Origin: Burkholderiales bacterium
GTDB taxonomy: Bacteria; Pseudomonadota; Gammaproteobacteria; Burkholderiales; WYBJ01
Reading direction: 5' to 3'
Length of the DNA stretch: 64,000 nt
Assembly (NCBI GenBank): GCA_020848435.1
Contig: JADLAC010000059.1
Span: 1 to 64,000 of the forward strand
Part shown: piece after piece, positions 25,100 to 28,696 of the stretch
Layout of the letters: each line of letters opens with the position of its first letter
How positions within the stretch are numbered: the stretch's first letter is position 1
Notes under the pieces: model-generated
The model's input: only the letters and a program-made list of their open reading frames with translations
Databases searched by the model: none
What the model was told of the DNA's origin: nothing
Made by a program: the position numbers and the translations under genes

Positions 25100-26620
25100 A
25101 TGTGCGGAATCGTCGGGGTCGTCGCCAAAGGGCCCGTCAACCAGCTCCTCTACGATGCGCTGCTGGTGCTCCAGCATCGCGGGCAGGATGCCGCGGGCAT
25201 CGTCACGTGCGAAGGCGCATCGTTCCACATGCACAAGGGTCCGGGCTTCGTGCGCGACGTGTTCCGCACCCGTAATATGCGCGCGCTGCTGGGCCACATG
25301 GGCATCGCGCACGCCCGCTATCCGACGGCCGGATCGGCCTGGGCGGCGGCGGAGGCGCAGCCGTTGTACGTCAACTCGCCGTTCGGCATCGTGCTCGGTC
25401 ACAACGGCAATCTCACCAACACCGAGCAGCTCAAGAGCGAGCTGTTCCGCGAGGACTTGCGCCACGTCAACACCAACTCGGATTCCGAGGTGCTGTTGAA
25501 CGTGTTCGCGCACGAGCTGCAAGGGGCGGTCAACGGTCGCCAGCTCGATCCGGCCGCAGTGTTCCAGGCAGTGGCCGGAGTACACCGGCGCTGCCGCGGC
25601 GCGTACGCGGTGGTGGCGATGATCGCCGGTTTCGGCCTGCTGGCCTTTCGCGATCCTTATGGCATCCGCCCGATCGTCTACGGCAAGGCCGAGACCGACA
25701 AGGGCACGGAATACCTGGTGGCCTCGGAAAGCGTCGCCCTCGACACGCTCGGCTTCGAGCTGGTGCGCGACGTCGAGCCGGGCGAGGCCATCCTGATCGA
25801 TGCGGACGGCAACTTCTACCATCAGCAGTGCGCGCCGAATCCCTCGCTCAATCCGTGCATCTTCGAGTATGTGTACCTGGCGCGGCCGGATTCGCAGATC
25901 GACGGCATCTCCGTGTATCAGACTCGGCTCAACATGGGCGAGAGCCTGGCCGAGAAAGTCGAGCGCGAGTACCGCCATCTCGACATCGACGTCGTCATTC
26001 CGATTCCGGATTCGAGCCGGCCCGCCGCAATGCAAATGGCCAATCGGCTCGGCCTGGGGTATCGCGAGGGGTTCATCAAGAACCGCTACATCGGGCGCAC
26101 CTTCATCATGCCCGGCCAGGCGGTGCGGCGCAAATCGGTGCGGCAGAAGCTCAATGCCATCGGCCAGGAGTTCAAGGGCAAGAACGTGCTGCTGGTGGAC
26201 GATTCCATCGTGCGCGGGACGACCAGCCGGGAGATCGTGCAGATGGCACGCGAGTCTGGTGCGCGGCGGGTATTCTTCGCTTCGGCCGCGCCGCCGGTGC
26301 GCTATCCCAATGTCTACGGCATCGACATGCCGACCCGCGAAGAGCTGATCGCCACCAATCGCACCGCCGACGAGATCGCGCACGAGATCTGCGCCGACCA
26401 GCTCATCTACCAGGACATCGAAGCGCTGGTCGACGACGTGCGGCGCGTGAATCCGCGGGTGACGAGCTTCGAGACCTCGTGCTTTTCCGGGCGCTACGTC
26501 ACCGGTGACGTGACCGACGACTATCTCGCCGATGTCGAAGCGCAGCGCCAGCGCGGGTCCGCGCCGGGCGAGGAGCCCGCGACCACCCAGCTCGATCTGA
26601 ATCTCGTCATGAGCGATTGA
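25100..26620 (+). CDS. purF: Amidophosphoribosyltransferase
   Basis: Commits PRPP to purine synthesis by replacing pyrophosphate with ammonia from glutamine. The 506-residue protein starts MCGIVGVV, so the N-terminal Cys becomes the glutaminase nucleophile after methionine removal, with no propeptide. The phosphoribosyltransferase PRPP loop is [16 protein letters not shown], and NRYIGRTFI is the adjacent conserved segment. The stop codon overlaps a perfect TTGACA that probably belongs to the metZ promoter. Confidence 0.97.
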
Positions 26621-26646
26621 CAGCCATTGCCGGGGCACGGTAGTCT
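26617..26646 (+). promoter_or_regulatory. Candidate sigma-70 promoter for metZ
   Basis: A perfect -35 TTGACA (26617-26622) overlaps the purF stop. TAGTCT (26641-26646), an 18-bp spacer away, is a weak -10. The predicted start near 26653 falls exactly at the first base of the riboswitch P1 stem, which supports the assignment. Confidence 0.55.
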
Positions 26647-26653
26647 CGTGCTT

Positions 26654-26705
26654 GCGCCGATTTGATGCTTCAGCTTGCGGGCGCATTACAAATGCCGCTA
26701 AAGCG
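26654..26705 (+). promoter_or_regulatory. SAM-II (SAM-alpha) riboswitch
   Basis: The S-adenosylmethionine-sensing aptamer of the SAM-II class sits in the metZ leader. P1 is GCGCC (26654-26658) with GGCGC (26680-26684). The conserved GATTTGA follows P1, CTTGC precedes its 3' arm, and ACAAATGCCGCTAAAGC (26688-26704) is the conserved 3' segment. The class-defining pseudoknot can form between GCTTCAGC (26667-26674) and GCTAAAGC (26697-26704) with 7 of 8 pairs. The class is known mainly from alphaproteobacteria and controls methionine-synthesis genes. It should lower metZ expression when SAM is plentiful. Confidence 0.9.
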
Positions 26706-26709
26706 AGGG

Positions 26710-26772
26710 ATGGAAAGCCCGCTTTGGCCTAGCTGGAGCGGGCTTTTGCATTCCCGCGGGATACCATCATGA
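26710..26772 (+). CDS. Possible 20-codon leader peptide overlapping metZ
   Basis: AGGG closing the aptamer is followed at once by ATG 26710. The frame runs 20 codons through the terminator hairpin and stops at TGA 26770-26772, which overlaps the metZ ATG as ATGA. The peptide (MESPLWPSW...) resembles nothing I know. The spacing from AGGG to ATG is too short for a good ribosome site, so translation is doubtful. If translated, it would couple metZ translation to the riboswitch. Confidence 0.3.
   Translation: MESPLWPSWSGLLHSRGIPS
26714..26747 (+). terminator. Riboswitch-controlled terminator in the metZ leader
   Basis: AAAGCCCGCT (26714-26723) pairs perfectly with AGCGGGCTTT (26737-26746) across a 13-nt loop, followed by a short T-run (26744-26747). 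The aptamer's AAAGCG (26700-26705) can instead pair with CGCTTT (26720-26725) inside the left arm, which would break the terminator. SAM binding ties up the AAAGC in the pseudoknot and would free the terminator. The short T-run makes efficiency uncertain. Confidence 0.65.
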
Positions 26773-27950
26773 GCGACGACTACCGGTTCGAAACGCTGGC
26801 GCTGCGCAGCGGCATCCATCGCAGCCAATTCAACGAGCACAGCGAGGCGATGTACCTGACCTCGAGCTTCGTGTTCGACAACGCCGCGCAGGCCGCGGCT
26901 CGATTCGCCGAGAAGGAAGCCGGCTTCATCTATTCGCGCTTCACCAACCCGACGGTGTCGGCGCTGCAGGAGCGCCTAGCCGCCCTCGAAGACGCGGATG
27001 CCTGCATCGCCACCGCATCGGGCATGGCGGCGATCCTCGCCTGCGCCATGAGCCTTCTCTCCAGCGGCGACCACGTGGTCGCGTCCCACAGCATATTCGG
27101 CTCCACGGTGCAGCTCTTCGGCGGCATCCTCAAGCGCTTCGGCGTCGAGACGACCTTCGTCTCGCCGACCGACATCGACGCCTGGCAGCGTGCCTCGACG
27201 CCGCGGACCAAGCTCTACTTCCTCGAGACCCCGTCGAATCCACTCACCGAGATTTCCGATATCGCGGCGCTCGCCGAGCTGGCGCATCGCAAGGGCGCGC
27301 TGCTTGCCGTCGACAACTGTTTTTGTACGCCGGCGCTGCAACGCCCGCTCGCGTTCGGCGCCGACATCGTGATCCACTCGGCCACCAAGTATCTCGATGG
27401 CCAGGGCCGCGTGCTGGGCGGCGCGGTGCTCGGCAGCCGCGACTTCATCCAGGGATCGGTCTATCCGTTCTTGCGCACCGCCGGGCCGACCTTGAGCGCC
27501 TTCAACGCCTGGGTCATCTTGAAGGGGCTGGAGACGCTGCGCATCCGTCTCGACGCGCACGCGGCGAATGCCTTGGCGCTGGCGCGCTGGCTGGAGAAGC
27601 AGCCAGGCATCGAACGGGTCTATTACCCCGGCCTGGCCTCGCATCCGCAGCATGCGCTGGCGATGCGCCAGCAGCGCAACGGCGGCGGGATCGTATCCTT
27701 CAGCGTGACAGGCGGCCGCGAGTCGGCGTGGCGCATCGTCGATGCGACCCGAATGCTCTCCATCACTGCCAACCTGGGCGACGCCAAGAGCACCATCACG
27801 CACCCGGCGTCCACCACCCATGGGCGCATCAGCCCCGAGGCTCGGGCAGCGGCGGGCATCGGCGAAGGCTTGCTGCGTATCGGCGTCGGCCTGGAAGCGG
27901 TCGAAGACATCCAGAGCGATCTCGCGCGCGGCATGCAAGGCGGGCGGTGA
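26769..27950 (+). CDS. metZ: O-succinylhomoserine sulfhydrylase
   Basis: A PLP enzyme that makes homocysteine directly from O-succinylhomoserine and sulfide. The 393-residue protein starts at ATG 26769 (MSDDYRFETLALRSG). The Schiff-base lysine is Lys207 in HSATKYLDGQG, and the YSRFTNPTV segment is the phosphate-binding region. MetZ is favoured over cystathionine gamma-synthase by the SRFTNPTVSALQERLAALE pattern and the purF-metZ neighbourhood. A SAM-II riboswitch controls it. The stop overlaps the pcm GTG by 4 nt. Confidence 0.92.
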   Translation: MSDDYRFETLALRSGIHRSQFNEHSEAMYLTSSFVFDNAAQAAARFAEKEAGFIYSRFTNPTVSALQERLAALEDADACIATASGMAAILACAMSLLSSGDHVVASHSIFGSTVQLFGGILKRFGVETTFVSPTDIDAWQRASTPRTKLYFLETPSNPLTEISDIAALAELAHRKGALLAVDNCFCTPALQRPLAFGADIVIHSATKYLDGQGRVLGGAVLGSRDFIQGSVYPFLRTAGPTLSAFNAWVILKGLETLRIRLDAHAANALALARWLEKQPGIERVYYPGLASHPQHALAMRQQRNGGGIVSFSVTGGRESAWRIVDATRMLSITANLGDAKSTITHPASTTHGRISPEARAAAGIGEGLLRIGVGLEAVEDIQSDLARGMQGGR

Positions 27951-28696
27951 AAGCGCGCAGGCGTGCGCTTCTGAAATCGCTCGCGGCCGGCGCCATGTCG
28001 CTTCGGGACGCACCGGCGGGGGCAGGCGCCGGCGGCGAGTTCGGCACCGAGCGCGCGCGCATGGTGGCCGAGATCGCCGACATGGCGCGCCAGACCGGCC
28101 AGGAGACGGGGCGGCCGCGGTTCGCGGATGGCGTGATGGACGCGATGCGCGCGGTGCCGCGCCACCTGTTCGTGCCGCGCGAGCGCGCCGACTCCGCCTA
28201 TCGCAATCACCCCTTACCCATCGGCAGCGGACAGACGATTTCCCAGCCCTTCATCGTCGCGCTCACCACCGACCTGATCGAGCCGCGCAAGCATCACCGC
28301 GTGCTGGAGATCGGTACCGGCTCGGGCTACCAGGCAGCCGTCCTGGCCGAGCTGGTGCACGCCGTGGACACGGTGGAGATCATCGAGCCCTTGGCGCGCG
28401 AGGCGGCGCAACGGCTGCGTACGCTCGGCTACCACAACGTCTCGGTGCACGTTGGCGACGGCCACGCCGGTTGGCCGGCGCGCGCGCCGTATGACGGCAT
28501 CGTGGTGACCGCGGCGGCGTCGCACGTGCCGAGCGCCCTGGTGGCGCAGCTCAAGCCGGGCGCGCGCATGGTGATACCGGTCGGCCCGCAGCATAGCACC
28601 CAGGAGTTCACGCTGGTCGAGAAGCGCGCCGATGGCGGCATCGTAACGCGCGTGGTGCTGCCGGTTCGCTTCGTGCCCATGACGGGGGGCTCGTGA
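27947..28696 (+). CDS. pcm: Protein-L-isoaspartate O-methyltransferase
   Basis: Methylates isoaspartyl residues with SAM so that damaged proteins can be repaired. GTG 27947 overlaps the metZ stop and gives 249 residues. The core has PLPIGSGQTISQPFIVA, the SAM-binding VLEIGTGSGYQAAVLAEL and acidic VEIIEP loop, and a late IVVTAAASHVP strand, all typical. The first about 30 residues (MKARRRALLKSLAAG...) are longer than the family core and resemble a weak export signal. An internal ATG at about codon 17 would remove most of them. Coupling to riboswitch-controlled metZ ties a SAM-consuming enzyme to SAM supply. Confidence 0.9.
   Translation: MKARRRALLKSLAAGAMSLRDAPAGAGAGGEFGTERARMVAEIADMARQTGQETGRPRFADGVMDAMRAVPRHLFVPRERADSAYRNHPLPIGSGQTISQPFIVALTTDLIEPRKHHRVLEIGTGSGYQAAVLAELVHAVDTVEIIEPLAREAAQRLRTLGYHNVSVHVGDGHAGWPARAPYDGIVVTAAASHVPSALVAQLKPGARMVIPVGPQHSTQEFTLVEKRADGGIVTRVVLPVRFVPMTGGS

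Follow-up and report, generated by a model that had tools for sequence, protein, structure and literature searches.

A probable SAM-II riboswitch upstream of metZ in a Burkholderiales bacterium, with a terminator hairpin complementary to its aptamer core

The 148-nt gap between purF (25100-26620) and metZ (26769-27950), within the 64,000-nt stretch of Burkholderiales DNA analysed here (the window), very probably encodes a SAM-II riboswitch that turns metZ, and probably pcm as well, off at high SAM by premature termination. We computed a family match, covariation in P1, a conserved promoter and terminator, complementarity between hairpin and aptamer above chance, covariation with the variable loop and the succession of folds as the transcript lengthens; what we infer is that the RNA binds SAM, that it terminates transcription in vivo and that control runs in this direction.

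The aptamer, its promoter and its target genes

When the leader was searched permissively with all 4227 Rfam families, RF00521 (SAM_alpha) matched the plus strand at 26644-26719 (33.6 bits, E 3.5e-6), 2.4 bits below its gathering score of 36 bits. A default Rfam scan of the window reported zero families because the leader scores under this cut-off, and we discarded the blank as evidence against an aptamer, given that the permissive match is significant; plus-strand leader matches to Trp_leader, rnk_pseudo, miRNA and CRISPR families were set aside as chance (E above 2). Across the whole 5.7 Mb genome the metZ leader is the best RF00521 match (E 1.8e-5), the second-best precedes metX (E 1.5e-4), with a GC hairpin and TTTTT behind the aptamer, and the third reaches only E 0.26. 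Since both good matches lie on methionine genes, this is not a chance arrangement. None of 14 control genomes gave an RF00521 match at E<=0.01, and matches appeared there only at E up to 10. An earlier, sequence-only reading of this DNA had assigned the leader to SAM-II and named a covariance-model search as the check; the match is significant, though under the gathering score, and together with a covarying P1 and an invariant core it bears the class assignment out.

All sequence elements listed by that reading are present where it placed them. P1 consists of a 5' strand, UGCGCC (26653-26658), and a 3' strand, GGCGCA (26680-26685), which the sequence, pairing among relatives and folding all indicate. 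Among 51 aligned leaders of the order, 100% of P1 cells are paired, and the outermost pair forms in 51/51 while varying between CG (21), UG (12), AU (10), UA (5) and GC (3), with 18 rows changed on both sides (P1 covariation score 0.166 vs. 0.074 in shuffles and <=0.065 for slid partners). Between the two strands lie the conserved L1 strand GAUUUGA (26659-26665), part of the putative SAM pocket; the A strand GCUUCAGCU (26667-26675), which contains the outer pseudoknot 5' strand CUUC (26668-26671) and has an alternative partner at 26731-26739; and the inner pseudoknot strand UUGC (26675-26678), which adjoins the SAM site. The pseudoknot 3' strand GCUAAAGCGAGG follows at 26697-26708, its first nine bases forming the antiterminator B strand. 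GATTTG, TTGC and GCTAAAG are invariant in the 51 leaders, as is the inner pseudoknot UUGC/GC.AA, and the SAM-pocket bases GAUUU, UUGC and GCUAAA are all present in the window. The outer pseudoknot helix is paired in 61% of cells, with both-side changes in three of its four pairs, and in the window it is a short CUUC/GAGG with one G-U pair; the earlier description of an 'almost perfect' pseudoknot was too strong.

A plus-strand -35 hexamer, TTGACA (26617-26622), overlaps the purF stop codon and is followed after a spacer of 18 by a -10 hexamer, TAGTCT (26641-26646), which ends 6 nt upstream of the first P1 base. This spacing predicts a sigma-70-like promoter with a start at ~26652-26654, at or next to P1, a placement that is well supported at the sequence level. 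TAGTCT, which recurs in 8 relatives, is weak against the -10 consensus, yet the arrangement TTGAC...TANNNT is conserved: TTGAC stands 40-50 nt upstream of GATTTG in 152/189 related leaders (vs. 4.2% for TTGAC anywhere in shuffled upstream regions) and is followed by TANNNT at spacer 17 (106 leaders) or 18 (32). This conservation supports the promoter proposed earlier, with a transcript start close to the first base of P1. A strict promoter and terminator scan of the window detected neither element, a negative that we regard as overridden by the conservation in relatives.

The downstream gene is metZ, as previously proposed; it encodes an O-succinylhomoserine sulfhydrylase (plus strand; NF006003, equivalog-level, 702.9 bits vs. 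a cut-off of 522). Behind it on the same strand, pcm (27947-28696) encodes a protein-L-isoaspartate O-methyltransferase (NF001453, 232.7 bits, cut-off 188), and it overlaps metZ, at the stop codon, by 4 nt (GTGA). The order metZ then pcm occurs in 4/4 genus members and in 0/42 named metZ loci outside the genus, while purF lies upstream of metZ in 28/42 of the latter. Because of the 4-nt overlap and the genus-wide position of pcm, the two genes probably belong to one operon, and in this genus a SAM-using methyltransferase probably shares the SAM-controlled metZ transcript.

The terminator hairpin and its predicted pairing with the aptamer core

A hairpin of 16 pairs (26713-26747, plus strand, -24.2 kcal/mol) separates the aptamer from metZ and runs into a short U-tract, UUUU continuing GCAUU. 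The sequence-only reading had described a 10-bp terminator; the hairpin is there, but those 10 bp are the GC-rich base of a longer stem, and the U-tract is short. In TTTTGCATT 5 of 8 positions are T, where the median over 169 leaders is 7, and as UUUUGCAUU the tract is weaker than in 84% of relatives. Given this weak U-tract, and given that the strict terminator scan was without a match at the hairpin, termination here may be inefficient. An automatic rule found a hairpin and U-tract behind the aptamer in 50/52 leaders, of which one call (metX leader L012) is spurious, lying inside a coding region, and the two missed leaders have interrupted U-tracts; in a larger set the same features follow the aptamer in 169/190 leaders, in support of the terminator-type expression platform that had been suggested.

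Two segments of the hairpin can pair back onto the aptamer. In pairing B, GCUAAAGCG (26697-26705) pairs with CGCUUUGGC (26720-26728, the B' element, in the terminator left arm) over 9 bp, 8 of them Watson-Crick and 1 G-U; in pairing A, GCUUCAGCU pairs with AGCUGGAGC (26731-26739, the A' element, in the terminator loop and right arm) over a further 9 bp. Both elements lie on the plus strand within the terminator hairpin, which makes the terminator a complement of the SAM-binding core. An antiterminator between AAAGCG and CGCTTT, mutually exclusive with the terminator, had been noticed earlier and is real; it extends over 9 bp rather than 6 and is accompanied by the second 9-bp pairing. We also considered the 6-bp pairing of the P1 3' strand GCGGGC with terminator GCCCGC as the main antiterminator and set it aside, as minimum-energy folds prefer A and B.

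We folded successive transcript lengths from 26653, with energies that leave out the pseudoknot and SAM. Pairing B is in the minimum-energy fold for transcripts ending at 26728, 26732, 26736 and 26740, and P1 coexists with it as far as 26736; pairing A joins at 26740, and from 26744 onward the terminator is the minimum-energy state. Taken in isolation, the antiterminator hairpin at 26697-26728 has -14.8 kcal/mol. At transcript end 26747 the terminator state lies at -39.9 vs. -35.1 kcal/mol for the antiterminator, ~5 kcal/mol apart in this calculation without pseudoknot or SAM. Since the terminator is the more stable once 26744 has been transcribed, antitermination and readthrough would have to be kinetic.

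In the mechanism that we propose, transcription would begin at or next to P1, and bound SAM would hold CAGCUUGC and GCUAAAGCG in the pseudoknot, leaving the hairpin at 26713-26747 free to form, so that RNA polymerase would halt before metZ. Without SAM, the left arm and loop of the emerging hairpin would pair back on both pseudoknot strands, 26697-26705 with 26720-26728 and then 26667-26675 with 26731-26739; this antiterminator would ruin the pocket and delay the terminator, and metZ would be transcribed.

For related leaders we scored whether the hairpin carries ordered complements of B (GCTAAAGCG) and then of A (the variable loop plus CAGCTTGCGG), using 129 representative leaders with platform k-mer overlap below 35%. 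Composite complementarity reached 12 or more Watson-Crick pairs in 26.4% of them (vs. 0.74% of dinucleotide shuffles, 0.39% with A/B letter-shuffled, 0% with A/B reversed and 0% of 47 unrelated terminators taken from locus flanks). These percentages are descriptive, since the representative filter removes kinship among leaders only partly, some leaders were gathered by a pattern that fixes GCGAGG, and thresholds were set after inspection of the data. With a score of 16 the window ranks in the top five of the 129, and 0.22% of shuffles of its sequence score at least as high; in the metX leader from the same genome, complementarity is slight (S = 8). Most leaders fall below the composite threshold. 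A complement of B of at least 8 pairs occurs in 23% of metZ leaders (null 0.7%), and metX leaders use the A strand only, with a complement of at least 7 pairs in 31% (null 2.6%) and a B complement in none. When variable loops were swapped between leaders, pairing dropped, and 0/20,000 permutations reached the observed mean. We lean towards the reading that in beta- and gammaproteobacterial SAM-II the terminator hairpin evolved as an ordered complement of both SAM-core strands, the nucleotides of the pocket serving as those of the antiterminator, and that this is a general expression-platform design, with GCUAAAGCG the preferred strand in metZ leaders and CAGCUUGCGG in metX leaders. Such recurrent complementarity between hairpin and pocket offers a switching mechanism specific enough to be tested, for a class in which structural work has mostly dealt with translational control.

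Alternative readings and known systems

Control by termination has to be weighed against an aptamer whose main effect is on translation or mRNA stability, with the hairpin as a constitutive attenuator. The crystallised SAM-II aptamer occludes a ribosome site (PMC10907184), in S. meliloti metA a terminator accompanies a translational switch (PMC9373788), and the U-tract of the window is weak. A related leader also bears on the question: in L012, of the same order, the metX AUG lies 10 nt after GCUAAAGAGG, without a terminator between, and to judge from its sequence this leader is likely a translational SAM-II. The window is built differently, its pseudoknot ending ~60 nt upstream of the metZ start codon with the hairpin between, and 169/190 relatives retain hairpin and U-tract, in a sequence complementary to the aptamer core; we therefore consider a mainly translational switch unlikely. 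Still further down in probability is a degenerate SAM-II relic or a variant with changed ligand specificity, which we think very improbable. The sub-threshold Rfam score, and the fact that betaproteobacterial members all score far below alphaproteobacterial ones, might be taken that way, but the low RF00521 score follows from a model trained on alphaproteobacteria: a model of the relatives, trained on the window among others, gives the window 76.3 bits (E 1.4e-17), no SAM-pocket base varies among 51 relatives, and it is the same methionine genes that are targeted.

The other strand has a claim of its own, as Rfam family RF02424 (Bp2_287) matches the minus strand at 26620-26748, across the whole leader (23.8 bits, E 0.0013; below its gathering score of 70), and the founder of that family was detected by RT-PCR in Burkholderia (PMC3521395). 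On this view the functional RNA would be an antisense sRNA; yet RF00521 outscores RF02424, and does so on the plus strand, RF02424 lies opposite the SAM-II strand in 17/17 loci that have both (the window and 16 others), and promoter, P1 pairing and gene order suit the plus strand only. The reverse complement of the RF02424 consensus, taken from the alignment to the leader, itself reads as a SAM-II core, GCGUC-GAUUUGAU...CUUGC-GGACGC...GCUAAAGC. RF02424 is probably a wrong-strand model, which covers the same leader with the same purF, metZ and metX neighbours and differs in being modelled on the strand opposite the aptamer; a cis-acting methionine element had been proposed in its source paper (PMC3521395). 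We give an antisense RNA hardly any weight as the functional product, though a real antisense transcript may exist, and keep the plus-strand SAM-II riboswitch acting by termination.

The riboswitch shares with the founding SAM-II description (RF00521; PMC1273637) P1 and pseudoknot, the motifs GAUUUG, CUUGC and GCUAAA, a methionine target, a promoter just upstream of P1 and a putative intrinsic terminator; it differs in P1 (GCGCC/GGCGC vs. alphaproteobacterial CGUGG/CCACG) and in a short outer pseudoknot helix, and scores 33.6 bits against 50-88 for most alphaproteobacterial members. The sequence-only reading had argued that SAM-II, as a class known mostly from alphaproteobacteria, bears by its presence here on how the class spread, a claim to novelty that is overstated because beta- and gammaproteobacterial SAM-II with terminators had already been reported: Bordetella was already listed as a host, with promoters just upstream of P1 and putative intrinsic terminators (Corbino 2005; PMC1273637), terminators were described as prevailing among the SAM-II platforms of alpha- and beta-Proteobacteria (Barrick and Breaker 2007; PMC2258182), and SAM-II was called common in Alpha-, Beta- and Gammaproteobacteria (Meyer 2009; PMC2704228). 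Its remark that most studied examples act on translation holds for the structural and biophysical work, which used a translational example (PMC10907184). The S. meliloti metZ SAM-II, however, was studied as transcriptional, and its terminated ~100-nt RNA is found in greater amounts when SAM is high (PMC9373788). That system resembles ours in joining SAM-II and a terminator (putative in ours) on metZ, its terminated RNA accumulating in rich medium, and differs in being alphaproteobacterial, whereas the antiterminator of the window is a two-strand complement of the aptamer core.

A 'novel' beta-proteobacterial metXZ element with a pseudoknot, a terminator and a speculative antiterminator is described in Leyn 2014 (PMC4239095), in which SAM_alpha was found only in Rhizobiales and Rhodobacterales. 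The element agrees with the present leader in its genes (metXW and metZ), taxa, pseudoknot, terminator and six conserved regions, and differs in having been named novel; from this description and overlap it is almost certainly the SAM-II leader. Our search of the open-access literature brought up no paper in which metXZ is identified with SAM-II or the complement design is set out. SAM-II long loops (RF01726; PMC2864571), a SAM-II variant from Bacteroidetes and marine samples, has long loops where those of the window are ordinary.

Distribution, divergent cores and tandem arrangements

RF00521 matched 46/100 relatives and, at E<=1e-3, 137/300 genomes of the order, with only 51/300 above the gathering score. 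In a phylum sample most matches outside the window's class, presumably alphaproteobacterial, scored 50-88 bits and members of the order 28-36 bits; order-wide, scores range up to 52 bits. A covariance model of the relatives, built from 51 aligned leaders of the order (the window among them), recovered the element from 218/300 of the order's genomes and from 113/229 genomes sampled across the class, nearly all of other orders. As an independent check, ten loci from other orders all matched RF00521 (31-38 bits, seven of them below the gathering score). A named pattern scan returned Rhodocyclaceae, Gallionellaceae, Methylophilales, Thiomicrorhabdus, Chromatiales and some alphaproteobacteria, and metZ or metX lies downstream of 100/140 additional leaders. 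Given the order and class counts we discarded the view that SAM-II is rare in this group: the metZ leader is one member of a large population, and a single such switch is expected biology. Most beta- and gammaproteobacterial members escape the Rfam SAM-II model, and this accounts for the new name that the regulon study gave the element and, apparently, for an sRNA family built on the opposite strand; one corrected SAM-II model would settle three records.

With gene names assigned by eye from translations, canonical SAM-II also precedes metH (two loci), metK (five loci), an ABC transporter ATPase resembling MetN (one locus) and a homoserine dehydrogenase-like gene (one locus).

Other genomes have a divergent core that resembles SAM-II, P1-GA(T/G)TTAA..CGAC-AACTTGC-P1'...GCTAAAGCGTCG, in which an insert can measure up to ~50 nt. 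It stands either by itself upstream of metK, at 17 loci spread over many families of the order, or 80-200 nt behind a canonical SAM-II with terminator. With insert letters omitted, covariation supports its P1 and pseudoknot (0.231 vs. 0.087; 40 cells changed on both sides), and CAAC/GTTG and others replace CGAC/GTCG in the pseudoknot. With a model built from 13 variants, matches turned up in 49/200 genomes from the order and in 6/185 from the class sample. In the ten loci scanned, seven of which are among those before metK, the variant core had no match to any Rfam family at E up to 2, RF01726 included.

The tandem arrangement, a canonical copy with terminator followed by a variant without an obvious terminator, occurs at 25 loci in beta and gamma lineages; in the tandem loci scanned, only two second cores gave RF00521 matches, both weak. 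Genes downstream include metF and a MoxR-like ATPase, both recognised by eye, and one for a protein of ~95-118 aa that begins M[FY]DC and lacks a Pfam match; behind the latter lies, again by eye, a MATE-like transporter. To the eye, hairpins behind several second copies could hide the Shine-Dalgarno sequence, which suggests that tandems combine transcription control with subsequent translation control. Tandem SAM-II also occurs in two Planctomycetota MAG contigs (Pirellulaceae KatS3mg110 and Planctomycetota J052), before homologous proteins of ~110-170 aa; the same arrangement and homologous proteins in both suggest that tandem SAM-II genuinely occurs, or was transferred, outside Proteobacteria, in preference to mis-binning of both contigs.
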